The notes below the pieces were generated by a model. It was not told the origin of the DNA, made no database searches, and saw nothing but the letters and a program-made list of their open reading frames with translations. Shown here in pieces: positions 7,055-31,861 of a DNA stretch of 32,196 nt (position 1 is its first letter; each line of letters begins with the position of its first letter). The position numbers were made by a program, and so were the translations under genes. Source of the DNA: a virus; IMG/VR virus record IMGVR_UViG_3300044695_003060, positions 1-32,196 of that record. The stretch is one strand, 5' to 3'.

Positions 7055-10000
7055 TTAATAACCGGGTACGAATGCTACAACATCCCACTTAACACGACCA
7101 GCATGATATGTTGCTGCTAATATATCTGTTGCTCCAGCCGCCGTACTCCAAGGTAGCGGACTACTTGCTGATGATGGAATTTGGAATTCACTACCTAAAG
7201 ATACAGTATGACCACCAGTGCCGTCTTGAGTTATTCTCCAACGAACCGTAACTCCGTCAACGGCATTTGTGGGGTTGCTTAGTGTGGTTGCTCCAGTAAG
7301 TGTCATATCAAAAATTTGACCGGTTGATACATCTGTTCCAACGCTACCGCTAACATTACCATTACTAATTACTGTTGGATAAAGTTGTTTGAATTTGCCA
7401 GTTGATGCTGTTGTTGCTCCTATCGCTGTATTATCTATGCTGCCACCATCAATATCAACCTTACTAAGATCAACTTCGCCGGTTCCGTTGGGTGTAATAG
7501 CTATATTTCCGTTTGATCCTTGATTAATTACTATACTTCCGCTATTTGTTCCACCGTTTGTATTGACCGTCAAATTTCCAGTGCCATTTGTCGTGATCGT
7601 GGCGGCAGAATTGCTATCTCCAACTCTTAATGTGTCGGCATCGACTTGAACATCTCCAGTGCCGCTTGGTGCTAGAACTATGTTTCCATTTGTATTAGTT
7701 GAACTAATTGTATTGCCATCTACCCTTATGTTATCAACGTCTAAAAATCCATTGAAGTATCCACTACCAACAACGTGTAAAGTATATGTTGGATTGGTTG
7801 TGGCAATGCCAACTCTACCGCCAAGTGGATTCAAAGATAGCGGATAATAATCAGTTCCACCGCTTTGAATATAACAGGCGTATGGACTATTACTAAGTGT
7901 TCCAAAAATAAGCGCATTTGTAGAACTTCCAAGTATTTTTATAATACCAGTAGCAGCACTGGCGCCAACTGTGGAAGTACCATAAACTTCTAGAGGTGCT
8001 GCTGGCGTTATTGTACCTATACCAAGTCTATTATTCGTAGCATCCCAATAAAGCTGACCACTATCAGCAATTATTCCACTAGAGCTATTCCAATACGCTA
8101 TGTGGCTAGCAACGCCTGTTCCAGTAACAGGATTTGTCAGCGTATTTTGTTTAGCGCTCAATTGGGTTTGTATTGCGCTCGTAACACCCTTTACATAACT
8201 CAGTTCAGTTAAACTTGGATATGTTACAGTGGATAACGACACAACGTTTTTATTGCCATCAAAACTAGCTATAGTATTGGTTGTTTGATTACTTATAGTA
8301 ACTTGAGTGCCAGAAAATCTCCAATCGTTACCACTAAATCCAATATGTTCTCCATCTTCGGATGCATAAATACTACCTTCAACATTATTTCCTTGAAATT
8401 TAATATAGTGAAAACCATTAGTAGAATTTGTTGTTGGTTCTATTGTTATGCCATAAGACCCTTCTAAAAATGAACCACTTTTAGCTACTATATTACCGCT
8501 AATATTTAGATTGGTTCCATTAAATGTTAGATTACTTTCTCCGTTTATACCAGTACTAGTGCCATCACTAGTTAATATTCTATTATCGCCAGCATTTGAT
8601 ATTGTTGCTCCACCGCCACCACCTCCAGTAATTGTGAGTGTGCCAGAAGCGTCACTATAAGAGATAGTGATACCACTTGCTCCAATCAGGAATCCGCTAG
8701 CTCCAACAACATCCTGCACAGCTTCAGTAAAGTCTGTAATATTTGACGAAATGTGCGTATGTCCACTAACACTAACATTTGTTCCATTAAGTTGTAATGA
8801 TGATGTAAAATTACCACTAGCTGCACTTAGCAACCCACTACTAATAGTTAATCCATTGGTGAAAGTATGATTAGCCTCGACTGTTCTTGCGGTATTTATA
8901 TGAAGATATTGAGAGTGATCATCATCTCCAAGGCCGAATAATAATCCATGATCATTCTGAGTCACGCCGTTAATTGTTGATGATACGCTCAGTCTAAGAT
9001 CTAGTATGCTTTGTAAACTACTCTTTGGAGTATTAGTAAAACTATCATTTGTTACAAATATCAATCTATAGAGTGGTTTGATTTCACTAGCTGGAATATT
9101 AGCTAAGTTTAGATCGGACCAAATATTATGATTTTCAGCACTACCTAAACTACTATCCTCTCTTTGACCCACAATTGCTAGTATAGGATCATTAATATCA
9201 TTAGTAGCCACAATCCACATAGCAAAATATCGGTTATTAGGAACGTTTGGAGTTGTCCAAGTTCCACCAGAATACAAATTGTATTGCGCTCTTGTGCCAT
9301 TATATTTAACTGGAAACGCTGTTGCGGAATCTCTTACCCATTGACCAGTAGTGCCACTATGATAGTAGGTAGGAATATAAGCAAACGGAGTTAACTCCTG
9401 AGTAAATGGATCACCATTACTCCCATCAACAATATTAATGACAATATCTTCTTGATAAAGCGTACCGTTACCGATGCTCACTTGAGCGTGAAGATCAGAA
9501 CTGCCATCTCCTAATAATCCACTTGGACTAATACTTAATCCACTAATATATTGCATACCAAAAGTGTTATGGATCCATTTATGAGTAACACTATCCATTC
9601 GGATACCGTGGCGCTCTTCTCCAAAAAATGTGCTTTGATTAATATCAGCATTCCAATGAATATATGCAATTGGCACATCAGTATCAAAATTGAATTCTGT
9701 TGTTTTATTGCTTAATAGTCCAGTGCTTATATCAAAATGTAAATAGTTGAGTGCTGTTCCACTACCGATAACAACAGTTTCCGTTGCTGTTTTTCTTACT
9801 TTTATACCCTCAATATAAATATCATAGCTTACTCCAGTAGGTGCTATAGTAAAAGTTCTAGTACTATCGTTAAAACTAAGAACGCTATCTGTTCGATTTA
9901 CGAATCCTTGAGGTTCTTTACTAAGAATATTAATCTCGGTATGAAGATTATTTAGTGTTAATGTTCCAGATGGATCGTTATAACTAAGATTAACTCCAGT

Positions 10001-10318
10001 ACCAGCAACTAATAATTGAGCAACTCTATCATCAACACTTTCATCAAAATCGCTAATATTACTGGAAGATAATCCGCTTGCACTGATTGTGATACTGGAT
10101 CCATTAGTTCCCAAATTTAGAGATATGCCGCTACCGGCCAAGAATCCTGTTGGTACTACGCTAGAATAAGATAATGCACTCCATTGTGTAGACCCATTTC
10201 CAATTTTCAAACGGCCAGTATCTACTTCGTATCCGGGTTCTCCGCTGGCTAAAATAATAGAACCATTCGTAGACCACTCTGAGGCAGTACCTTTTCTTAG
10301 CTTAATTGTTACTGACAT
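7055..10318 (-). CDS. Large tail-fibre protein with Mtd-type N-terminal domain
   Basis: A 1087-residue modular tail-fibre protein. Residues 1-55 (LRKGTASEWSTNGSIILASG, GYEVDTGRLKIGNGSTQWSAL) match the N-terminal domain of the phage major tropism determinant family. Repeated SNI(S/T)DF...V blocks, each followed by a SGTLTI/SGTLTL strand, occur twice, and HTHIS collars and a glycine-rich GGGGG hinge follow. The middle carries RLGIGT and RVGIATTNPTYTLHV motifs, common in fibre shafts, and the C-terminus has LTGATTLSNPTNAVDGVTVRWRI-type tip strands. A segment near 8500-8600 is clearly related to one in the fibre gene at 11453-12982, indicating module exchange. The gene stands behind a GTGTATA motif. 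Probable role: receptor binding or fibre shaft. Confidence 0.85.
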   Translation of the reverse strand: MSVTIKLRKGTASEWSTNGSIILASGEPGYEVDTGRLKIGNGSTQWSALSYSSVVPTGFLAGSGISLNLGTNGSSITISASGLSSSNISDFDESVDDRVAQLLVAGTGVNLSYNDPSGTLTLNNLHTEINILSKEPQGFVNRTDSVLSFNDSTRTFTIAPTGVSYDIYIEGIKVRKTATETVVIGSGTALNYLHFDISTGLLSNKTTEFNFDTDVPIAYIHWNADINQSTFFGEERHGIRMDSVTHKWIHNTFGMQYISGLSISPSGLLGDGSSDLHAQVSIGNGTLYQEDIVINIVDGSNGDPFTQELTPFAYIPTYYHSGTTGQWVRDSATAFPVKYNGTRAQYNLYSGGTWTTPNVPNNRYFAMWIVATNDINDPILAIVGQREDSSLGSAENHNIWSDLNLANIPASEIKPLYRLIFVTNDSFTNTPKSSLQSILDLRLSVSSTINGVTQNDHGLLFGLGDDDHSQYLHINTARTVEANHTFTNGLTISSGLLSAASGNFTSSLQLNGTNVSVSGHTHISSNITDFTEAVQDVVGASGFLIGASGITISYSDASGTLTITGGGGGGATISNAGDNRILTSDGTSTGINGESNLTFNGTNLNISGNIVAKSGSFLEGSYGITIEPTTNSTNGFHYIKFQGNNVEGSIYASEDGEHIGFSGNDWRFSGTQVTISNQTTNTIASFDGNKNVVSLSTVTYPSLTELSYVKGVTSAIQTQLSAKQNTLTNPVTGTGVASHIAYWNSSSGIIADSGQLYWDATNNRLGIGTITPAAPLEVYGTSTVGASAATGIIKILGSSTNALIFGTLSNSPYACYIQSGGTDYYPLSLNPLGGRVGIATTNPTYTLHVVGSGYFNGFLDVDNIRVDGNTISSTNTNGNIVLAPSGTGDVQVDADTLRVGDSNSAATITTNGTGNLTVNTNGGTNSGSIVINQGSNGNIAITPNGTGEVDLSKVDIDGGSIDNTAIGATTASTGKFKQLYPTVISNGNVSGSVGTDVSTGQIFDMTLTGATTLSNPTNAVDGVTVRWRITQDGTGGHTVSLGSEFQIPSSASSPLPWSTAAGATDILAATYHAGRVKWDVVAFVPGY

Positions 10319-10812: not shown

Positions 10813-11453
10813 TTATATATCCTTGTATGATTGGAAACTGTTGCTCCACCATTATTAGTAATCGTCAATTGACTTTTAACATCTATAAGATCTCTAACTA
10901 AAGGCGCATAAATATTTAAACTTTGTGGTCTTATAAGAGATGGGCTTATTCCTCGCGCTAATGCTAAAACCTCATCGGCTGTTAAAGCTGCGTTCCATAC
11001 TCCCACCTCTGCCAATGATCCACTAAAATAGTTACTAAATGCTGATGCTGCCCGTGTTACTCCTTGAAATAATCGATTCTCACCAGTGCCGCTAGAGTTT
11101 GTAGTATTGGTAGCTGAACTACCACCATTAATATAAACTGTACGACTAGTTGAGCTAGCAAAAACGCCACAAGCATGTGTCCATGTGTTAGCGGAAAAGC
11201 CTGTAGTTGTATCAACAGCAGCAGTAGCTGTACCAACAGAAAGAATGCGAATAGGATCTCCTGCCACGGCGCCTTGAGCATTTAAACGTATACCCTGTCC
11301 CCCGGTGGCGTTATCGCAGATATTTAATAATCCTTGGTTTGTTGTAATATTAGAAGTTATAAACCAACAAGCCATTGTAATAGGAAAATCAGCAAATCGA
11401 TCTCCTGTTAAAGTACTGAGATATTGAGTTGAACCATTAAAAGAATATGCCAT
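10809..11453 (-). CDS. LamG/concanavalin-like fold protein, probable fibre tip or glycan-binding
   Basis: A 214-residue protein with the signature of a laminin-G-like (concanavalin-type jelly-roll) domain: MAYSFNGSTQYLS at the start, ITMACWFIT, then NTWTHACGVF, RTVYINGG, a SGSLAEVGVWNAALTADEVL block, and a C-terminal LNIYAPLV strand. Such domains bind carbohydrates or proteins and are frequent in phage fibre proteins. No signal peptide is present, as expected for a virion part. Its ATG shares one base with the TAA of the preceding fibre gene, and its own stop overlaps the next gene as ATGA. Probable role: receptor recognition on the cell surface. Confidence 0.8.
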   Translation of the reverse strand: MAYSFNGSTQYLSTLTGDRFADFPITMACWFITSNITTNQGLLNICDNATGGQGIRLNAQGAVAGDPIRILSVGTATAAVDTTTGFSANTWTHACGVFASSTSRTVYINGGSSATNTTNSSGTGENRLFQGVTRAASAFSNYFSGSLAEVGVWNAALTADEVLALARGISPSLIRPQSLNIYAPLVRDLIDVKSQLTITNNGGATVSNHTRIYK

Positions 11454-12982
11454 TATAATACGCTCCTAATTTCTACAGCAATAAGTTCAACGTCTCCAGT
11501 TATAGTATCGTTAGTAGTATCACTAACATCTCTATAAATTTTAATTCTGAAGAAATCTCCAGCTGCTAATGAATCTATGGTTGTACATGTTATTGTTGTT
11601 GTGGTTGGTATTCCAGCAGTTGCGTTGGTAGCGGAATGGGCTTCTGTTGCGGTGTCAAATGAATCGGCGTCTTCATCGGTATTCATATCTTCGAATTGTA
11701 TGCCCCAACGGCAATTTCCTGTAGTAGCACTAGTTGCCATCCAATGAATTCTGACGGATAATCCTGACGCTAGATTAGCATTGTCTGGTATAACTCCAAC
11801 GAAGACACAGCTTTCTTCTGTAGTATCATCAAAATCTAAAACAGCAATACTATTTCTCGTATCTAACGCTGCAAATGCTGATGCTGGAGGTTGATTGTCT
11901 AAAGCGTTAAAATAACATAAAGATTTATTTTTTAGACAGGTTGCTGCACCGGCTCCTCCCTCAGTTAGATCAAGATAATATCCTCTTGTTGATCCGGTTG
12001 TTTCAAAAAATCGTAATCGATTTTGAAATAGATCTATTGTAAGATTACCACTGATCGAACTATTTGTTGCTGGTTTAGTAAGTAATATCTCGCCGCCTTC
12101 ATCTCCACTAGATTGTGAACTAATAAATCTACTAGCATTAAGATCTGACGTAAATAAGCCAGAGCCAACAACATGAAGCGGAGCGCTTGGGCTTGTTGTT
12201 CCAATACCAATACTACCATTACTATTTTGCATATATAGCCTAGCAGTACCATTAGCACTTCGTAATTCTATTCCACCAGCATCTCCTCTACCGTGTTGTA
12301 GATAGGTTCGATTTGCATAATAGCTATAGCCCAAATAGGCAGAGGTATCGGTAGCCCCAAACTTACTATTTAAGTCTAATCTTGGTCCAGTGCCAGCGTT
12401 ACTACCAGCGTCACCAATTCTAAGGACAGCATCATTTTTAGATATATGTAGAGTAGAAGACGGCGATATTGTGCCTATGCCAACATTGCCAACATCTGAA
12501 AGTGTCCAATTTCTACCGGCAACCAACCAGTTATAATTACCATTAGCATCACTAGTAATTTTGTTATTAACATCACTTCTAAAGATTATTCGATCATATC
12601 CCCAAGCGTTACCATTAAACTTATATGATTTTAATGCGCCAATAATACAATCACCATTATTAATGGTAAGATTAGTACCATCAAAAGTTAAGTTACTTTC
12701 AGCATTGATCCCATTAATTGATCCTGTGCTGGTTAGCACTCGATTATCTCCACTACTACTAATAGTCGGTAATAACCCGCTAACAGCAGAGTTAAAATCA
12801 GTTATATCAACACTTGTGTGAGTATGATTACTGAGAGTACTCCAAGTACTAGTTCCATTACCAATTTTTAGAATATTATTGGTAGTATCAAATCCTGGCT
12901 CACCAGATCCCAATATCGGATTAGATGTTGACCATGATGAGCTAGTGCCTTGACGAAATTTAATCAAATTGTTTACTGGCAT
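11453..12982 (-). CDS. Tail-fibre protein with Mtd-type N-terminal domain
   Basis: A 509-residue fibre protein. Residues 1-52 (IKFRQGTSSSWSTSNPILGS, GFDTTNNILKIGNGTSTWSTL) form the Mtd-type N-terminal domain. A collar HTHTSVDITDF and a GDNRVLTSTGSINGINAESN segment follow, the latter closely related to a segment of the 1087-residue fibre. The middle has VGIGTISPSSTLHI and IGIGTTSPSAPLHV repeats, often seen in fibre shafts. The C-terminal ~150 residues (from about NKSLCYFNALDNQPP onward) form a distinct beta-rich domain with Thr-rich strands, probably the receptor-binding tip. It lies 21 bases after the next fibre gene in the same late block. Confidence 0.85.
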   Translation of the reverse strand: MPVNNLIKFRQGTSSSWSTSNPILGSGEPGFDTTNNILKIGNGTSTWSTLSNHTHTSVDITDFNSAVSGLLPTISSSGDNRVLTSTGSINGINAESNLTFDGTNLTINNGDCIIGALKSYKFNGNAWGYDRIIFRSDVNNKITSDANGNYNWLVAGRNWTLSDVGNVGIGTISPSSTLHISKNDAVLRIGDAGSNAGTGPRLDLNSKFGATDTSAYLGYSYYANRTYLQHGRGDAGGIELRSANGTARLYMQNSNGSIGIGTTSPSAPLHVVGSGLFTSDLNASRFISSQSSGDEGGEILLTKPATNSSISGNLTIDLFQNRLRFFETTGSTRGYYLDLTEGGAGAATCLKNKSLCYFNALDNQPPASAFAALDTRNSIAVLDFDDTTEESCVFVGVIPDNANLASGLSVRIHWMATSATTGNCRWGIQFEDMNTDEDADSFDTATEAHSATNATAGIPTTTTITCTTIDSLAAGDFFRIKIYRDVSDTTNDTITGDVELIAVEIRSVL

Positions 12983-13003: not shown

Positions 13004-14605
13004 TTATGGTGTCCCACCATCGATAGCAAAATAAGTTAAAACAACGGGATTAGCTGCGCTTACTCCGCTAATAGCATTATAGGTCGAACCTAAAGATAAA
13101 GCAGTCTGACCTATTGTAAAAGAACTATTTACTAATGCAGAATTGCCAACCCCGCCTGTTTTTATGCTAACAGCACCAGCTGTCACCGAAAAGTTAGCAC
13201 TGTCGAAGCTAGCGATTCCCTGCACACCAGTTGTTGCTAAAGTATGGGTCGTTCTATTTACTCCGGTGACTCTACCATAAGCGTCCACGCTTACACTGCT
13301 AACAAAAGTACCGCTTGGGCCAGTTGTTGTATCTGTTTGAGATACAGATGGTAATCTTGCAGCGTTCAGTGTACCGGCGCTAATATTGTCAGCACTTATG
13401 CCCGTTATTGATGCTCCGTTGCCAGAAAATGTTGCAGTAATTGTGCCAGCACTAAAATTACCACTACTATCTCTTGACACAACATTAGAAACGCCGGTCG
13501 TAGCGGCATTTACACCTATTGTTAAAGCTGCTCCTTCACTACCACCATTGCCACCAGTAATAAAACTACCATTTGTTATACTGGCAACATAATTACCGGT
13601 AGTATCTATTCCAAGAGCCACACTGTCTGGAGCTATTGTTGCTGCTATTGATAGAGTTCCGTTAGCCAAATCTGTTAGCGTTACAGTTCCAGTGCCGGTA
13701 ACATCACCTGTTAGAATACCGGTAATAATTGGATCTGGTTTACTTAATATATTGCTCCAATCAACATTCGCGTCAAGCTCACCCTTTGTTCCACTAAATA
13801 CTTCGCTTGTATTAGTAGCATCTGGAATAAATGTGAACTTGCCCGTGCTATCGTCGTAACCAAAAAAACCAACCTTTGCAGATGTACCGTTGTGGTATTT
13901 AAACTCTATACCACGATCTTTATTGTCATCACTACCGGGATTAGTATCACCACCTAATGTAAATATTGGATCGTCTATTGTGACTACTGTACTATTAACG
14001 GTTACAGTATTACCATTAACAATTAAATCGTTGCCAACAGTTAAATTGCCAGTTGTACTTAGATTTCCAATATTGACAATATTTAGATTACTATCCAAAA
14101 CAACCGCTTTGCCAGCAACGCCAGTTCCGGGTATACTACCATCAATATAATTTACTTCTGTTGCTGACGCTGTAACATCCGTGATAGCTGATAATGTGTG
14201 CGTATGATTACTTAAACTGATGCCAGTGACAGCTATATTTAAGGAACTAGTGTCATTACCGCTATCGGTATATGTAAGCTGTATGCCATTACCAGCAGTA
14301 ATTAGATCGGCTACTCTATCATTAACGCCATCTATAAAGTCTGTAATATCTGCAACTTGAATTGTTGGATCAGAAAGAGATATGGTATAATTACCATTAC
14401 TATTGGTAATGCTGATTCCACTACCAGCGGTTAAAGCCTTAACGGATGCGTATGTTAAGCTTGTCCAAGTAGTTGTGCCGTCACCAATTTTAAATAGTCC
14501 GGTATCAGTCTCAAAACCTATTTCGCCAGCTGTTAGCGTTGGATTTGAACTAGTCCAACCAGAAGCAACACCTCTACGAACTTGAATTTTTGTATTAGCT
14601 GGCAT
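13004..14605 (-). CDS. Tail-fibre / structural protein with Mtd-type N-terminal domain
   Basis: A 533-residue fibre protein. Residues 1-54 (IQVRRGVASGWTSSNPTLTA, GFETDTGLFKIGDGTTTWTSL) are an Mtd-type N-terminal domain, followed by VADITDF and HTHTLSAITDV collars. A long stretch beginning GNLTVGNDLIVNGNTVTVN and containing the DDPIFTLGGD, KDRGIEFKYH and KVGFFGYDDSTGKF blocks is a recognisable module of structural proteins in T4-like phages of aquatic bacteria. The C-terminal part is Gly/Thr/Ser-rich with a YGRVTGV motif. The ATG is preceded by AAAGGAGA. Likely part of the adsorption apparatus; its exact location is unknown. Confidence 0.85.
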   Translation of the reverse strand: MPANTKIQVRRGVASGWTSSNPTLTAGEIGFETDTGLFKIGDGTTTWTSLTYASVKALTAGSGISITNSNGNYTISLSDPTIQVADITDFIDGVNDRVADLITAGNGIQLTYTDSGNDTSSLNIAVTGISLSNHTHTLSAITDVTASATEVNYIDGSIPGTGVAGKAVVLDSNLNIVNIGNLSTTGNLTVGNDLIVNGNTVTVNSTVVTIDDPIFTLGGDTNPGSDDNKDRGIEFKYHNGTSAKVGFFGYDDSTGKFTFIPDATNTSEVFSGTKGELDANVDWSNILSKPDPIITGILTGDVTGTGTVTLTDLANGTLSIAATIAPDSVALGIDTTGNYVASITNGSFITGGNGGSEGAALTIGVNAATTGVSNVVSRDSSGNFSAGTITATFSGNGASITGISADNISAGTLNAARLPSVSQTDTTTGPSGTFVSSVSVDAYGRVTGVNRTTHTLATTGVQGIASFDSANFSVTAGAVSIKTGGVGNSALVNSSFTIGQTALSLGSTYNAISGVSAANPVVLTYFAIDGGTP

Positions 14606-14620
14606 TATTGTCTCCTTTTA

Positions 14621-14914
14621 CTATGGTGTTCCACAGTCTATATTGTATGTGTCTATAAAATCACTAAGATAGTTTTCTAAACCAATAATGTCGCTGGCAA
14701 ACACAACGTTACCAACATAACCACTATTTATTTCTAAACTTTGACTTGAAATAGCTTCGATTTCTAATGTGTAAGTATTATTTGAAATAGATGCTTCTAA
14801 GCTTTGATTTAAAAAAGCTTCTATTTCTAACAAATCTGTATCATTTGAGATTGCTGTTTCTACTTCTAATGTATATAAAGTTTCATTGATTTCGATTGTG
14901 GCTGTAGTACTCAT
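14621..14914 (-). CDS. Small repetitive acidic protein, fibre region
   Basis: A 97-residue protein dominated by degenerate repeats of the type (S/T)LE(I/V)E(A/T).I(S/N), seen at TLEVETAIS, LLEIEAFLN, SLEASISN, TLEIEAISS and SLEIN. The repeats alternate hydrophobic and acidic residues, consistent with stacked beta strands. The last 25 residues (DIIGLENYLSDFIDTYNIDCGTP) resemble the short C-terminal tails of neighbouring fibre proteins. It overlaps the preceding gene as ATGA and precedes the 533-residue fibre gene by 15 bases. I know no family. A small fibre or neck component is the best guess from context. Confidence 0.6.
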   Translation of the reverse strand: MSTTATIEINETLYTLEVETAISNDTDLLEIEAFLNQSLEASISNNTYTLEIEAISSQSLEINSGYVGNVVFASDIIGLENYLSDFIDTYNIDCGTP

Positions 14915-15329: not shown

Positions 15330-16961
15330 TTAACAGCCAGAGTATGTTACGCCACCACCATCTATCTCTGATATGGCTTTGGCTAAATTGCTTATGCTTA
15401 ATACTTGAGTATCGCGAGCAGAATTTTGAACTAAAACATATTCAGTATTGCAAGCATCTGTCATTGTTGTTAATGATTGTAAATCTAGATTTGTTTGAGC
15501 AACTACCCAATCAGCATTTGTTCCACCGCCTGTTGGTCTGTCGGCTAATGCTATTACCAAATCTCCTACTTCACAAATATTACCCGCATATGTGCCAGCT
15601 GTTGTTACTTTGTAAACCCAGCCAGTTTCGTAAATTGATGGCAATGAAGTTATCGTTCCTCCAGTACCTAACGTTCCTTTAAATAAAAGGGCATCATTTA
15701 GAGATAAAACATTATCTACATAATCTGTTGTTGCTACTCCACTACCATTAATGGTTAAAGCTGCAAAATCTCCACTTGCTGCCGATAAAAACATACTACC
15801 AGACAATGATGGCGATACAAGTTCTGTCCAAGGCGTAACACCATCACCTATTTTAAATAGAAATGAATCTGTGGCAAATGCAGGTTCGCCAGATGCTAAT
15901 ATGGGATCAACATTATTGAAATTTTCTTCTAAATCTCTTCTTATCTGAATTGAAGAATATTGTTTATTATTGCATCTATCTAGTGTGGGTGGATAAGTTG
16001 TGCTTGTTGTGGTCGTGCTTGTTGTTGTTGTGGTTGGAGGTGCTGTGGTAGTTGTTGATAATACAGCGCACTGATACTCAGAAAAAATTGGACCATTTCC
16101 TTCTGAGTCAGCATCTATGCATTGTGGTTCAAAATCTTCTTGTGTTGCGTATTCCCAATATCCAGTATCTATACCGTCGCTTTTATAATAGGCAGCTTTA
16201 TACCACTCATTTTCGTCTGGCACATAATACTTTGCTCCAGCTTTTTTTGGAACAGTATATCCACCACAAATACCATTTAAGGCATACGCACCGTCTTCTG
16301 TTGTATTATCGTCTTGATATCCGGTGGGCTTATTGTTATGTAACCAATTTGCGTATCTGGCGGCGTCGTACCAGCTTACAAAAACAACTGGTTTTTTATC
16401 CATACTATTTTTGAGATAGTAAAAATATCCACCAGATATTCCATCTCTAACAATACCACCATAGTCCGAAGAAGACATTTGAGTATTGTATAAACCGTAT
16501 CTATCGGTTTTAGCTACAGCGTTTAAAAATTCTGCGTATTCGCAATTAGTAACTAGATACTTGCTAATCCAGTACTGATAAGATACGGAACCGTAGTCAG
16601 TTACTAAATCTCCAGAGTTATTTATATCTCCTACGGAACACCATCTACCAGAATCTAATGTGCCAGAAGCGGCTAATCTGAATCCTAATGAACTAAATTC
16701 ATCGCCAACATTTTCTTCGAATCTTTCATGTTTTGATAATTCTATTAGCGAGCTATTCCATGCTCCACCCCTATAAACAACTTGTGTTTCCCAAATATTA
16801 GAAAATCTAGTAATTATTTCTTTGACATTACCATTTTGATCAAAAGTGCCATAAGCACTTGTTCCACCATTAGAGCCAACAGTTGTTAAATTGCCATCTA
16901 AACTATTCCAAACAGCACAACTATTATAATTTGCGGTGTTATTTCCGGCTGGAAAACTCAT
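15330..16961 (-). CDS. Fibre protein with permuted SUMF1/C-type-lectin domain, Thr-rich linker and Mtd-type domain
   Basis: A 543-residue chimeric fibre protein. Residues 1-97 carry the C-terminal half of a formylglycine-generating-enzyme-like (SUMF1, C-type-lectin fold) domain: SAYGTFDQNGNVKEI, VYRGGAWNSS, LGFRLA. Residues 105-273 carry the N-terminal half: VGDINNSGD, ISKYLVTNCEYAEFLNAVA, FVSWYDAARYANWLHNN, TTEDGAYALNG, VPDENEWYKAAYY, GYWEYATQ. The halves are thus in reversed order. A Thr/Pro linker (302-326) follows, then an Mtd-type domain (336-381, PILASGEPAF, FKIGDGVTPWTEL), and a C-terminal module (424-492, LLFKGTLGTGGTI, NICEVGDLVIALAD). Enzyme activity is unlikely; ligand display is expected. 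The start is fixed by the upstream stop, which directly abuts this ATG. Confidence 0.85.
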   Translation of the reverse strand: MSFPAGNNTANYNSCAVWNSLDGNLTTVGSNGGTSAYGTFDQNGNVKEIITRFSNIWETQVVYRGGAWNSSLIELSKHERFEENVGDEFSSLGFRLAASGTLDSGRWCSVGDINNSGDLVTDYGSVSYQYWISKYLVTNCEYAEFLNAVAKTDRYGLYNTQMSSSDYGGIVRDGISGGYFYYLKNSMDKKPVVFVSWYDAARYANWLHNNKPTGYQDDNTTEDGAYALNGICGGYTVPKKAGAKYYVPDENEWYKAAYYKSDGIDTGYWEYATQEDFEPQCIDADSEGNGPIFSEYQCAVLSTTTTAPPTTTTTSTTTTSTTYPPTLDRCNNKQYSSIQIRRDLEENFNNVDPILASGEPAFATDSFLFKIGDGVTPWTELVSPSLSGSMFLSAASGDFAALTINGSGVATTDYVDNVLSLNDALLFKGTLGTGGTITSLPSIYETGWVYKVTTAGTYAGNICEVGDLVIALADRPTGGGTNADWVVAQTNLDLQSLTTMTDACNTEYVLVQNSARDTQVLSISNLAKAISEIDGGGVTYSGC

Positions 16962-17882
16962 TTAAAATACCTTATCTAAAGTCCAAGTTACTTTTCTGGG
17001 TGGGAAACCATCAACATCGCTAAATACCCAAGAGCCATTTTCGCCCAACATATTTGCTGCATCACGCTCACGAATCCAAAAACTACCATCTGGTTGATCA
17101 TGACGTTTAGGGCCGTTATTCCACAAGCCCCAACTATTTTGGACTAGAAATAGGGTTTCATTATATATTTCATGTGTATCGTCCATTCCTATCCAAGCCA
17201 TAGCGTGCGCCCAAGAACCACTTCTTGCCGCTATTCCATTTTTATCTCTTCGACTAGAAAAACCGGCCATAGAACACACACTAATACAATAACCATTTGC
17301 TATTGAATCTCTCGCTTGTTCTACAGTATTTACTAATGATATTGTTTTTACTTGGTGCTTTTTTGCTTCTTTGACTAATGATTCTGGAACACCACCCCTA
17401 CCCCAACTGGCGGCTAACTTACCTTCATATGAAGAAAGGTCTATGGAACCATACTTTTGACGAATTAATAAGCCGCCAGTTTTATTAACAAATCTAGCCG
17501 CACCAGAACAAGTCATACCTTCTCCACCGTGACCACGCGACCCATATATACCTTCTGTAGCCCCTCTAGCTATAAATTCTTCGCGTTCTCCATTTATAAT
17601 TTCGCAACTGCGTGTTACATCTATCGAATTTCGGGTAGCATGTGAAACACAATCACCTACAACTTGTCTTTCTGATGGGCCAAAACCCGGATCAAACTTT
17701 AACAAGTTCTTAAATGGTAACGCTAACTTTCCCTTTCCGCTACCATATAGATCATATGCAGCAGCACCAAATAGTGGATGAGGTAATTCGCCTAATAGTT
17801 TATCTAAGTCTTTTGGATCACAATATGATCCAATAAAACCGTCTTTATAGGCTTTTAATAGGTCGCTTGGTGTTTTAAACAT
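16962..17882 (-). CDS. Papain-like (C1 family) cysteine protease
   Basis: A 306-residue protein with all the landmarks of a papain-fold cysteine peptidase. These are Gln73 (oxyanion hole) and Cys78 in QVVGDCVSHA, His226 in SGSWAHAMAWIG, and Asn249 in VQNSWG, with the usual spacing of a mature catalytic domain. I see no signal peptide and no long inhibitory propeptide; residues 1-70 precede the catalytic domain. It lies between a holin-like gene and the lectin-like fibre gene in the late block. It may therefore act in virion maturation, as a virion-borne protease that acts on the host surface, or at lysis. The fold call is firm, the target unknown. The Shine-Dalgarno is weak (GAAG). Confidence 0.88.
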   Translation of the reverse strand: MFKTPSDLLKAYKDGFIGSYCDPKDLDKLLGELPHPLFGAAAYDLYGSGKGKLALPFKNLLKFDPGFGPSERQVVGDCVSHATRNSIDVTRSCEIINGEREEFIARGATEGIYGSRGHGGEGMTCSGAARFVNKTGGLLIRQKYGSIDLSSYEGKLAASWGRGGVPESLVKEAKKHQVKTISLVNTVEQARDSIANGYCISVCSMAGFSSRRDKNGIAARSGSWAHAMAWIGMDDTHEIYNETLFLVQNSWGLWNNGPKRHDQPDGSFWIRERDAANMLGENGSWVFSDVDGFPPRKVTWTLDKVF

Positions 17883-26519: not shown

Positions 26520-26600
26520 TGGTGTGTGAAGGATTCGAACCTCCGAAGTGTAAACATCTGATTTACAGTCAGACCCCTTTGACCGCTCGGGAAACACACC
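26520..26600 (-). tRNA. tRNA-Tyr (anticodon GTA)
   Basis: The minus-strand sequence starts GGTGTGTTTCCCGAGCGG and folds as a class II tRNA. The acceptor stem GGTGTGT pairs with ACACACC. The anticodon stem TCTGA/TCAGA encloses the loop CTGTAAA (anticodon GTA, Tyr), there is a long variable arm as in bacterial tRNA-Tyr, and a T arm with GGTTCGAATCC. CCA is not encoded: the discriminator A is followed by TAAAAAAC. It lies between rIIB and the GT2 gene on the same strand, probably cut from the operon transcript. Confidence 0.95.
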
Positions 26601-27553: not shown

Positions 27554-29710
27554 TCAGATACGACTCAGAATATTGGACATATTTTCGGCAGACTCAATCG
27601 TGTCGATATAGTCAACCACAATCTTAACATCATTTTGACTAACACCACCATAGTATCCCATATTAGCAATTACCTTGAGCATAGGATACTTCTGTACAGC
27701 GTCATCAAATCTCTTAGAGAACTTTGTGTTATCAATCTTTGTTGCAGACAAATCAACGCTATTACAATTCGGGATGATAGTACTCATGGCACGAACAAGT
27801 TCCATTTCATGACGCATAGAAGTGATACGCTTCTCATACTCATTATACTCAGCGACAACCTTCTTTGCTTCATTGTCTGTTTTTGTGGCACTAAAAATAT
27901 TTGCAAACTTTTCATTTTTATGAGCCGACAAACCGCAGCGAATGTTACAATCAATAATATCTTGCTTATGGTCTGCAACAGCCTTGTTAAAAACTGTGAG
28001 CATAACACTAATAGCATCACTCCAGTTGGAACGCTCCGCAAGTTTACGATTCTTAATCACAGAAGGCTTAACAGCATAAAAGGTCATGCCATCAACGTCA
28101 TCTGGATAATACTTGTGCATAAAGCTAAGAACATTAGCAATATAACTCTCACTCATATCCTTATAGCCAATCGTGATATTGCCCTTTGCTTCAGTAAGAT
28201 AGTACGCATTCTCATACTTGACACTCATGTTGCACACTTCAAATTGACCAGTTTCTTCATTAAAGACTTGAATATGAACGGGTGGAAGACCATCGCTAGA
28301 ACCAGAACTGCTTCTATCGTAGGTGATCTTGGGCAAATTAGAAGTCTGAACAACATCATCTTTGGTCGCTCCACCAAGTATATCATACAAACCGTTGTTG
28401 TCAACAGTCTCACCGTCCTTAAGTTTGTACACATAGCACTTTTGTTCATCACCGTATGCTCTTTGATCCTCACGCATAAATTGCTTGATACGACTCAGGC
28501 CGCCGCGAGTCAAATCATCAACAAACACTTTCATATCGCCAGTAAAGTTGACGAACTCAACATCTTTAGAGCTATTGATTTTCTTACGATAAGAAGACTT
28601 ACTGAGGAATGTAAGTGAAAGCTTATTCTTAACGTTAATGCTCTCATTAACAATATTGTCGAAAAGCTTCTGGCCGTTCCAAGTAATAGACTTCTGAAGC
28701 GATTCAATAGCATTCTTGATAGAAGAACACTGGTCGCTAATTTGAACATACTTGATACGAGCCTTATAAAGCGAAGGCTGGCTCTTAATCTGATCCTCAA
28801 TTTTAGATGCAATCTCAGAAGTGATGCGATTAACGATACTCTTGATATTGATCTTAGTATCCTTACTGTAGGACAGAGATTCACGACTAGGAGTAATATC
28901 AACATCACCAATATTCACAAAGATACGCAGACCGTCAGAATACTGGATGAATCGTGCTTCTTTATTATCGCCGTCGCCCATGATTTGGAAATGATCAACA
29001 GGGTATGCGATCTGACCCATGATAATCAGATTGTTGTCAGCATTGTCATCAAAGTACCAACCATCACCAGCAAGAACCTTATCAATTTTATTGAAGGAAA
29101 TCTTTTCGCCAATAAAGTTGGGCTTAACCTTGAAAAATTCGTACACCTTATATGCTTCAGCATAAAACCTATTTACATCATTGGAATTGACTTGAATAGA
29201 AACCTTGATGCCGTTAGGTTCAGTTGTGTCATTCTCATGCATAAGAGAAAACACGGGGCTTCCATCTTCATTCTTGTAGGCATTATAAATACGCTGCTTG
29301 CCATCAAGATAAGCCTCTACGGTAAAACTATCAGCATAGGCAAACGGAGCCTTGCTACCAAGACCAAGGCAACCAACGGCATCGTTGCTATTATTGCGAG
29401 TGCTGCGGAAATACGTAGTATACAGTTGCATACAATCATCGTGATTCATGCTAGTGCCATAGTCACGAATAAAGAAAACAGGATTCAGAGCGGTAGGAAG
29501 ATGAACGTCGAACGCAACGTCACGCTTGCCAGCATCAACATGAGAATCGTAAGCATTAGTAGAAAGCTCACGAACAACTGCGAGAATCTTGTTAGAATAC
29601 AGACCGTCAGACAGAATAAAGAAAGCCTTAGACGATGCTTCGATGCTAAACTTAGACTCTTCGAAGTTACCAGACTTTTCAATGACGTTATTACCAGCGT
29701 GAAGTTTCAT
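27554..29710 (-). CDS. rIIA: rIIA-like protein (GHKL ATPase domain)
   Basis: A 718-residue homologue of T4 rIIA. The N-terminal 130 residues carry GHKL-type ATP-binding motifs: the N box with Asn52 (VRELSTNAYDSH), the G1 box with Asp83 and Gly85 (FIRDYGTSM), and the G2 box GCLGLGSKAPFAYAD (113-126). A PSRESLSYSKDT block and a long C-terminal region follow, as in other rIIA proteins. With rIIB it counters host or prophage exclusion in T4. A strong promoter (29755-29782) and TAGGAGA lead it. Like rIIB it largely avoids TTA, CTA and TCA codons, leaving long false reading frames on the other strand. Confidence 0.88.
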   Translation of the reverse strand: MKLHAGNNVIEKSGNFEESKFSIEASSKAFFILSDGLYSNKILAVVRELSTNAYDSHVDAGKRDVAFDVHLPTALNPVFFIRDYGTSMNHDDCMQLYTTYFRSTRNNSNDAVGCLGLGSKAPFAYADSFTVEAYLDGKQRIYNAYKNEDGSPVFSLMHENDTTEPNGIKVSIQVNSNDVNRFYAEAYKVYEFFKVKPNFIGEKISFNKIDKVLAGDGWYFDDNADNNLIIMGQIAYPVDHFQIMGDGDNKEARFIQYSDGLRIFVNIGDVDITPSRESLSYSKDTKINIKSIVNRITSEIASKIEDQIKSQPSLYKARIKYVQISDQCSSIKNAIESLQKSITWNGQKLFDNIVNESINVKNKLSLTFLSKSSYRKKINSSKDVEFVNFTGDMKVFVDDLTRGGLSRIKQFMREDQRAYGDEQKCYVYKLKDGETVDNNGLYDILGGATKDDVVQTSNLPKITYDRSSSGSSDGLPPVHIQVFNEETGQFEVCNMSVKYENAYYLTEAKGNITIGYKDMSESYIANVLSFMHKYYPDDVDGMTFYAVKPSVIKNRKLAERSNWSDAISVMLTVFNKAVADHKQDIIDCNIRCGLSAHKNEKFANIFSATKTDNEAKKVVAEYNEYEKRITSMRHEMELVRAMSTIIPNCNSVDLSATKIDNTKFSKRFDDAVQKYPMLKVIANMGYYGGVSQNDVKIVVDYIDTIESAENMSNILSRI

Positions 29711-29754
29711 AATGCAAAATCTCCTACAAGTGCTAAATTACTGAACGTGCTTCA

Positions 29755-29782
29755 AGTATACCAGATGTATCGGCACTGTCAA
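29755..29782 (-). promoter_or_regulatory. Sigma70-type promoter of the rIIA operon
   Basis: The minus strand has a perfect -35 TTGACA (29777-29782), a 16-base spacer starting GTGCCGATA, and the -10 TATACT (29755-29760), 45 bases before the rIIA ATG. The -35 box overlaps the stop codon of the upstream gene. TGCCGATA is shared with the promoter at 23136. Confidence 0.85.
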
Positions 29783-30096
29783 GCGGTGTGCTTGAATTTT
29801 TTTTCTTCGATGCAAAAAACTATAGGCGACAACGAGAAATCTACCAAATTTCCATCTGCGTAATCGTTCCATTCATCAAGAAAGCTTTTAACCAAATTTA
29901 TGTCTTCTGTGCAATATCTATATGAAGTGTAATCGTTTATGTCATCATTCCATACAATTACAGAATCATATCCAGCCTCTACGTTACGCGGATCATCTTT
30001 CAAAGCTCTTGCAGAGCATAATTGTATTGGAGAAAAATTATTACTCTTCATAGAACGAACTATGTCACCCTCAAGCATTTCTACTTTAATTTTCAT
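29779..30096 (-). CDS. Unknown protein downstream of thyX
   Basis: A 105-residue protein that I do not recognise. It begins [20 protein letters not shown], has a [20 protein letters not shown] middle and a helical, acidic [14 protein letters not shown] stretch, and ends in a lysine-rich tail. The pattern suggests a small globular cytoplasmic protein, without a membrane segment or cysteine motif. The ATG overlaps the thyX stop as ATGA, so the two are coupled, and a role near nucleotide or host metabolism is possible but not shown. Confidence 0.65.
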
Positions 30097-30765: not shown

Positions 30766-30794
30766 ATTGTAGCGTCGAGATCTTTATTTGTCAA
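30766..30794 (-). promoter_or_regulatory. Sigma70-type promoter of thyX
   Basis: The minus strand has a perfect -35 TTGACA (30789-30794), a 17-base spacer and the -10 TACAAT (30766-30771), 38 bases before the thyX ATG. The -35 box lies within the last codons of the protease gene. Its first spacer bases (AAT) match the promoter at 23136. Confidence 0.83.
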
Positions 30795-31554
30795 TCTTCT
30801 TTTTTCTTCGCTCAATTATTTCTTTTACCCATCCCGCATATTTACTCACTCTAGTATGACCAGCTTCATCGCCATACATAGATTTAGGAGCCTTTCCTTC
30901 TGCCATAACACAAGAATTTATACCAGCTAATTTTCCATCGATGAATAACCCACCACCGCTGTCTCCACTGGCTATAATAAATTCTAATTCAGTTCTTCCT
31001 TCTCGTATTGTTCTACTTGGTGTGCATATAAGCAAATCTCCAGAAATATTATCTACAATATTGGATCCGGCCCTTTTTTTACCATCGGATATTTTTTGAC
31101 CATCAAGAAAAGTTCCGGTTAATCCGTATCCAGATATGCAACAAATTTTTCCAACCTCATCTTCTGTTTCATATAGCGGCGGGTAAAAATCCAACTCTAA
31201 AGGTTCAACCAGATGGCATAATGCTATATCAGCAACGCCAAATGATCCATTAAAATCTTTGTGCAATATTATTTCATCTGTCAATATTACTGTTGAATTT
31301 TTTACATGGACTCCGCAATGCTTTGCACCCTTTACAACATGAGCCGCTGTTAATATCCATTCTGGATTAATTATTACAGCAGATGCACAGAATAGTTGAT
31401 TATCTTCATAAAGACCGCACACACTTAAAACATATTCAAATTTTTTGCCATATTCAACATATTTTTCATCATTGGTCAACGGGTCTGTTGTTCCAGCAAA
31501 TAAAGAAGACGCTATCAACAAAAAAGAGAACATCGTTTTAGTTAGACTTATCAT
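30784..31554 (-). CDS. Secreted trypsin-like serine protease
   Basis: A 256-residue chymotrypsin-fold (S1-type) protease. From the ATG ending at 31554 (MISLTKTMFSFLLIASSLFA) the first 20 residues form a Sec signal peptide. The catalytic triad is visible: His72 in WILTAAHVV, Asp109 in GVADIALCHL, and Ser199 in ASGDSGGGLF, followed by an AGINSCV strand. Cysteines are numerous, consistent with disulfides outside the cytoplasm. An ATG at 31605 in frame would add 17 residues from the HNH gene overlap and mask the signal peptide. Export to the periplasm or medium is likely. Targets may be host envelope proteins or extracellular inhibitors. Secreted trypsin-like enzymes are uncommon in phages. Confidence 0.85.
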   Translation of the reverse strand: MISLTKTMFSFLLIASSLFAGTTDPLTNDEKYVEYGKKFEYVLSVCGLYEDNQLFCASAVIINPEWILTAAHVVKGAKHCGVHVKNSTVILTDEIILHKDFNGSFGVADIALCHLVEPLELDFYPPLYETEDEVGKICCISGYGLTGTFLDGQKISDGKKRAGSNIVDNISGDLLICTPSRTIREGRTELEFIIASGDSGGGLFIDGKLAGINSCVMAEGKAPKSMYGDEAGHTRVSKYAGWVKEIIERRKKKIDK

Positions 31555-31861
31555 GATATGGCCTCGTTTGGATTTTGGATAAATATAGTCTAGAATCTTC
31601 CTCAACGTTTGGATTCCAACTTTTATAATCCATCAAATGGCCGAATATCAAATGGCAAGTTTTGCCGCACAATGTTATTAAATTATTTGGATCAAGTTCT
31701 CTAGATGGGTCTTTATGTACTGGTATTTTATGGTGAACTTCTAGATCGTCTTTTCTGCCGCAAGCTTGACAATATGGCTGATGTTTTATATGCTCTTTTC
31801 TTACATCGCCCCATTGAGGCGACCTTTTACCAAAAAATAGAGATTTAAAAAATCCAAACAT
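31538..31861 (-). CDS. HNH endonuclease
   Basis: A 107-residue HNH nuclease. Cys31 and Cys34 (PYCQACG) and later cysteines (LCGKTCH) form the zinc knuckles. The His-His pair in LEVHHKIPVH holds the metal and the general base, and NNLITLC supplies the HNH Asn and following strand. The final His is in CHLIFGH. Stand-alone HNH proteins of this size in phages act as packaging helper nucleases or homing endonucleases; with no terminase in the window I cannot decide. A GTGTATA motif lies 32 bases before the ATG, and the protease gene overlaps its end by 17 bases, so both may be late genes. Confidence 0.88.
   Translation of the reverse strand: MFGFFKSLFFGKRSPQWGDVRKEHIKHQPYCQACGRKDDLEVHHKIPVHKDPSRELDPNNLITLCGKTCHLIFGHLMDYKSWNPNVEEDSRLYLSKIQTRPYHDKSN

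Follow-up and report, generated by a model that had tools for sequence, protein, structure and literature searches.

A probable circular permutant of the SUMF1/FGE-type C-type-lectin fold in fibre-like proteins of uncultured phages

The window analysed here (the whole stretch of 32,196 nucleotides that makes up IMG/VR record IMGVR_UViG_3300044695_003060) encodes a 543-aa fibre-like structural protein of an uncultured virus of bacteria, on the minus strand at 15330-16961 with its ATG at 16961-16959. The first ~293 residues of this protein are very probably a self-contained circular permutant of the SUMF1/FGE-type C-type-lectin fold, with the origin and the role in ligand display set out below. 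It seems that phages have made a bacterial fold into a display module of their own, since the swap recurs in at least 70 other uncultured phage contigs and in no bacterial copy examined. In what follows, A stands for the half of the SUMF1/FGE domain that is usually N-terminal and B for the half that is usually C-terminal; the window protein is laid out as B-A, Thr-rich linker, Mtd_N and C-terminal region. Its parts, all on the minus strand, are as follows.

15330-16961, minus strand: fibre-like structural protein, 543 aa (permuted SUMF1 domain, Thr-rich linker, Mtd_N, C-terminal region)
16671-16961, minus strand: B half, residues 1-97 (ANYN..DQNGNV.E..RGGAW..GFRLA), from PF03781 profile 149-254 and the A2 profile against PDB chains
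16644-16670, minus strand: junction, residues ~98-106, old C terminus to old N terminus, turn of a predicted hairpin
16083-16643, minus strand: A half, residues 107-293 (VGD..KY.VTN.EY..FLNAVA..VSWYDAARYANWLHN..EWYKAAYY..YWEYATQ), from PF03781 profile positions 34-129
15972-16052, minus strand: Thr-rich linker, residues ~304-330, from the sequence, with a tandem repeat at 16000-16036
15834-15950, minus strand: Mtd_N (major tropism determinant N-terminal) domain, residues 338-376, PF18454, E 2.5e-8

The TAA of the upstream gene (16964-16962) lies in frame directly before the fibre ATG, with no gap, and therefore no longer start is possible in the fibre frame, as the sequence-only reading had maintained; the N terminus of the 543-aa ORF reads MSFPAGNNTANYN. 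That reading had also placed the domain before a Thr-rich linker and an Mtd-type domain. The linker is present, and so is an Mtd_N segment, which at 34.2 bits against a cut-off of 26.3 marks the protein as a phage fibre with Mtd_N; the Mtd lectin domain is absent.

In the FGE-sulfatase profile PF03781, residues 126-264 correspond to profile positions 34-129 (whole protein E 4.7e-15, 56.4 bits against a curated cut-off of 23.3), and the DNA at 16671-16937, coding for the N-terminal part of the protein, corresponds to positions 149-254 (E 1.3e-4). The curated cut-off is thus passed with the halves out of collinear order, 149-254 preceding 34-129. A profile of the permuted family, compared with the PDB, matches solved chains of the FGE fold with the halves reversed in one and the same chain; in SUMF2 (1y4j), query residues 28-92 correspond to chain residues 196-267 and query residues 109-200 to chain residues 17-132. 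The proposal that the second half of a SUMF1 domain comes first and the first half second is therefore borne out by both the Pfam and the PDB matches. Chance does not explain the swapped order, because 119 distinct units in viral contigs keep it. PHROGs and NCBIfam provided no useful function for the permuted domain.

AlphaFold2 with 89 homologues gave one compact domain (pLDDT 94.9, pTM 0.93; 263 of 293 residues at 90 or above), and with only 12 homologues a pLDDT of 45.7. A structure prediction of this region had been suggested as a check, and it returned a single confident domain, not two incomplete ones. Two helices (136-146 and 194-205) appear in the model, and the junction is flanked by strands (to ~95 and from 104), features that would fit a C-type-lectin core. 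Strands beta1 and beta5, at the N and C termini of that core, run antiparallel (PMC6328139), so that joining them would produce a hairpin at the junction. The chain would have been opened in the loop between the EWYKAAYY..YATQ and ANYN..DQNGNV regions, and the old C-terminal strand (GFRLA) would run through a short turn into the former N-terminal one (VGD). The junction is placed by the model strands on its two sides and by a gap of 1-14 residues in nearly all relatives. Canonical proteins L191 and L197 keep the uncut loop (in L191, YATQSNAVPTAVTADAVGNGSAGSGDNSANWNKAADWN), the left part of which resembles the ends and the right part the starts of permuted units, which indicates that little or nothing was lost at the cut. 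Together, the short gaps, the flanking strands and this uncut loop agree with a single cut in one loop and a joining of the old ends, as first proposed. As in a true permutant, both halves are complete, the old termini are joined and the new termini lie in one loop; the compactness is a prediction.

Searches bound to chain order (Foldseek/VIA-align) matched mainly one side of the domain at a time. Residues ~97-292 correspond to the first ~200 residues of CarF, TvpA, PorK, PvdO and FGE, with Z up to 6.0, possibly an unspecific level, and residues 4-97 to EgtB-IV 342-448 (rmsd 2.5 over 85 residues), the other EgtB-IV matches covering mainly the A side at 179-365. Foldseek gave no PDB match at E 0.001 and nothing meaningful in BFVD, as is expected when an order-bound search meets a permutant. 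The swapped order would likewise account for the way in which profile and fold searches that depend on chain order break up or overlook phage proteins of this kind.

As a rule, the fibres of phages are trimeric, and the same sequence contacts would be used if the B half of one chain completed the A half of its neighbour in the fibre, each lectin unit being built from two chains. Such a domain-swapped oligomer is nevertheless unlikely, as the two strands linked by the 1-14 residue junction lie side by side and antiparallel in the parent fold, which suits an intrachain hairpin, the monomer is predicted with confidence, and tandem units in a single chain would be hard to arrange as swaps. A permutant closed within one chain is thus the preferred reading.

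The sequence-only reading had called for a database search for the same order of halves. Scanning viral contigs with residues 1-289 first revealed it in L003, L004 and L006, and later profile scans and half-specific HMMs raised the number to 119 distinct B-A units in 96 open frames or proteins on at least 70 contigs. This lower bound consists of 68 different contigs in one profile scan, with B-A at every locus, plus L004 and L006. Identity to the window unit is roughly 35-57%, and the gap from B to A is 1-14 residues in nearly all units. The unit is N-terminal in its ORF in 37 cases, C-terminal in 28 and internal in 47, where it sits within long fibres between Thr/Pro linkers; in 7 it makes up the whole ORF (L089 and L091 are cut short). 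One 311-aa protein (L036:5971-6903) consists of the permuted domain alone. A Thr/Pro/Ser-rich linker lies within 80 residues of 76 of the 119 units. Of the 119 permuted units, 57 have an NPxNxxNF-like junction, compared with 3 of 138 canonical flanks; the pattern was picked after looking and hence lends weak support.

In L003, a single open frame of more than 3,500 residues holds five complete B-A units separated by long spacers, several of them Thr/Pro-rich. A chain of this kind (B-A-linker-B-A-linker-B-A) can be read either way, and one might suppose canonical A-B domains with a very long Thr/Pro loop insert, each A pairing with the B of the next unit and the outermost halves left as orphans. 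The single-unit proteins argue against this: 70 of 95 distinct viral stretches contain exactly one B and one A, often without a neighbouring unit, and the partners would have to lie 70-560 residues apart instead of 1-14. We give this arrangement next to no credence and keep to B-A as the folding unit.

Several odd architectures were seen among the relatives. In L035 (ORF 1, residues 599-1173) a normal-order unit directly follows a permuted one in the same protein; in L305 (first ORF, residues ~800-1400) and L115 a complete canonical SUMF1 domain is nested in the A half of a permuted one; and in L061, L063, L075 and L077 the former ends of the chain are the site of an insert of some 260-290 residues between B and A, which looks like a propeller by eye. 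These arrangements fit a modular, loop-tolerant domain.

A tblastn search with two permuted units and one canonical unit found no match in 50,697 phage records, and a search of the same type in plasmids yielded two weak partial Streptomyces matches and nothing else. The canonical profile picked out 34 distinct A-B units in the viral contigs. Nearly all of them start with a signal-peptide-like segment and end in a PEP-CTERM-like one, features by which we take them to be bacterial-type genes and not fibres.

The gene upstream of the fibre, whose stop abuts the fibre ATG, is the following.

16962-17882, minus strand: papain-like C1 peptidase relative (Pfam Peptidase_C1 E 0.012, below the curated cut-off; relatives at 77% identity)

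The order of peptidase and then fibre is the same in the syntenic contigs L025 and L026. In L025, the closest syntenic orthologue, the fibre consists of an RCC1-like propeller (by reading), poly-Thr, a complete B-A unit, poly-Thr and an Mtd-like segment; a match to Mtd_N was obtained in the 980-residue frame of its twin contig L026. Other relatives start or end at the edge of the unit, or are the unit alone. The window protein begins abruptly at its B half just after a stop codon, and tandem AB-AB proteins exist in bacteria; it might thus be taken for a truncated or misassembled remnant of such a tandem, from which the first A and the last B were lost, leaving two half domains that do not pair. 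This is already contradicted, and we consider it highly improbable: upstream of the B half the syntenic orthologue has a propeller and not an A half, the same B-A unit is found in the at least 70 contigs at the identities given above, single-unit proteins and the stand-alone 311-aa protein exist, and the prediction is of one domain (pTM 0.93). A complete domain or a missing half upstream in homologues, which would have pointed to truncation, was looked for and found in none. Because L025 keeps both the propeller and a complete B-A unit, the window protein is best seen as a shorter version that starts at the edge of the unit, not as a broken domain.

The peptidase gene itself varies among the contigs. 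In L025 (2828-4885), as well as in L026, L103 and L104, an intein-like insert sits exactly at the GD|C motif of the papain-like peptidase and is absent from the window gene at 16962-17882. In L009 (3168-5111), a peptidase of this family has an insert at a different site, and that insert matches PHROGs named thymidylate synthase, ribonucleotide reductase and PhoH; matches named for such unrelated enzymes suggest that this insert may be a shared intein.

Relatives of the domain in cellular genomes keep the usual order. When 84,980 species of bacteria and archaea were scanned, the 80 best-matching loci held 104 distinct units, every one A-B and none B-A, and these canonical units come mostly from Planctomycetota and Verrucomicrobiota. 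No full-span B-A match at E 1e-80, a threshold passed by the B-A units in 12 of 12 viral control records, was found in 388 sampled genomes of Verrucomicrobiota (the phylum of L191) or 392 of Planctomycetota (the phylum of L175); few best candidates per genome were scored in these 780 genomes, and a rare bacterial or prophage B-A gene could be missed. As far as searched, the swap is restricted to viral contigs.

Several proteins from bacteria carry the domain in tandem (A-B-A-B), 6-63 residues separating B from the next A, and the permuted profile runs across the central B-A of one such protein, L243, over positions 2-273 (E 1.7e-62). Most likely a bacterial-type domain was duplicated in tandem (AB-AB) and the outer halves were then lost, which would leave B-A. 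In a rotated tree (100 rows, 258 columns) the order of the halves was strongly clustered, with 3 changes against a shuffled mean of 33. The free tree places the canonical bacterial rows L191 and L243 among the permuted ones, and many of its inner branches are weak. The tree in which the permuted units form one clade has a log-likelihood 18.4 above that of the free tree (AU p 0.677), so that a single origin is not rejected; it is compatible with these data and slightly preferred, short of proof. The permutation probably happened once, and the unit may then have spread among large uncultured phages as a repeatable module of fibre and structural proteins.

The active-site cysteine pair of FGE (human C336/C341) is replaced by Ser and Leu in the window protein, and in the alignment columns the pair is absent from all 119 units, mostly in favour of Ser/Asp/Thr/Asn and Leu/Ile, which makes FGE-type catalysis unlikely. 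The kinship in sequence with the FGE, EgtB and SenA families might still suggest that the permuted domain is an enzyme carried on the virion, formylglycine-generating or sulfoxide-synthase-like; given the loss of the cysteine pair throughout, and matches to the EgtB and SenA families that are far below the curated cut-offs, this is very unlikely. The RVT_1 reverse transcriptase was found in none of 47 viral records, several of them longer than 150 kb, records that may be fragments, and diversification by a retroelement is accordingly unlikely in those 47.

Three further fibres with Mtd_N lie downstream of the fibre-like protein in the window.

13004-14605, minus strand: neighbouring fibre with N-terminal Mtd_N
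11453-12982, minus strand: neighbouring fibre with N-terminal Mtd_N
7055-10318, minus strand: neighbouring large fibre with N-terminal Mtd_N

Mtd_N occurs somewhere in 18 of 32 related viral records, and the neighbours of the unit are tail-fibre or virion proteins in some loci only. With the FGE cysteines lost and no DGR reverse transcriptase found, the permuted domain most probably serves phage fibres as a ligand-display module without enzymatic activity, a function suggested by fold and context. Flexible Thr/Pro linkers would carry it on tail or head fibres with the ligand-binding face towards the host surface, presumably without any catalysis.

Elsewhere in the window, a 63-base tandem repeat (2.1 copies, 14732-14862) lies inside a small gene (14621-14914), and a tRNA-Tyr gene (26520-26600, minus strand) overlaps an ORF. 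The ORF at 30784-31605 resembles, by eye, a secreted trypsin-type serine protease (ILTAAHVV, GDSGGG), which is unusual in a phage. An rIIA homologue (27554-29710; PHROG E 1.1e-130) is overlain by long antisense frames on the plus strand (27635-28618 and 28742-29863), which are probably an effect of composition.

If the permutant reading is true, the chain ends have moved away from the paired terminal strands, and the lectin face could be placed at fibre tips, in mid-fibre or as beads on a string. The C-type-lectin/FGE fold serves in proteins from human receptors to phage tropism proteins, and its permuted form is widespread here. The canonical parent is visible, tandem proteins could be intermediates and the radiation is long, which makes it possible to test directly by what route the permutation arose and what it brings. 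The domain is also a candidate for host recognition in these phages, and the phage records searched contain no relative of it. That a single event gave rise to a virus-exclusive fold variant, whose topology is itself adaptive and which serves as a general receptor-binding cassette of large uncultured phages, is a tentative idea that we are inclined to doubt.

Natural permutation of a ligand-binding module has a precedent in circularly permuted calcium-dependent carbohydrate-binding modules, reportedly described by Montanier et al. in 2010; those modules belong to other families, not SUMF1/FGE. The open-licence literature searched yielded no description of a C-type-lectin or FGE domain in permuted order. 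Human SUMF1 and bacterial FGE share with the window domain the FGE subtype of the C-type-lectin fold, by sequence profile, but the window domain is permuted and has lost the active-site cysteine pair. The PEP-CTERM-type and tandem PF03781 proteins of Planctomycetota and Verrucomicrobiota have the same motifs in both halves, with at most 58% identity between canonical and permuted units after rotation; unlike them, the permuted units are swapped, lack signal peptide and PEP-CTERM, and occur in phage structural-type proteins. The variable proteins of DGRs (Mtd, TvpA 2y3c and TaqVP; PMC6328139) have the FGE fold subtype as well and, in the case of Mtd, a role in phage tropism, and the window protein carries an Mtd_N. 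Their variable region is at the C terminus of a domain in normal order (PMC6328139), whereas the order is swapped in the window domain and RVT_1 is lacking in the 47 viral records. The fold and the family are thus already known; the novelty lies in the permuted topology, in how widely it has spread and, within the searches made, in its confinement to viral contigs.
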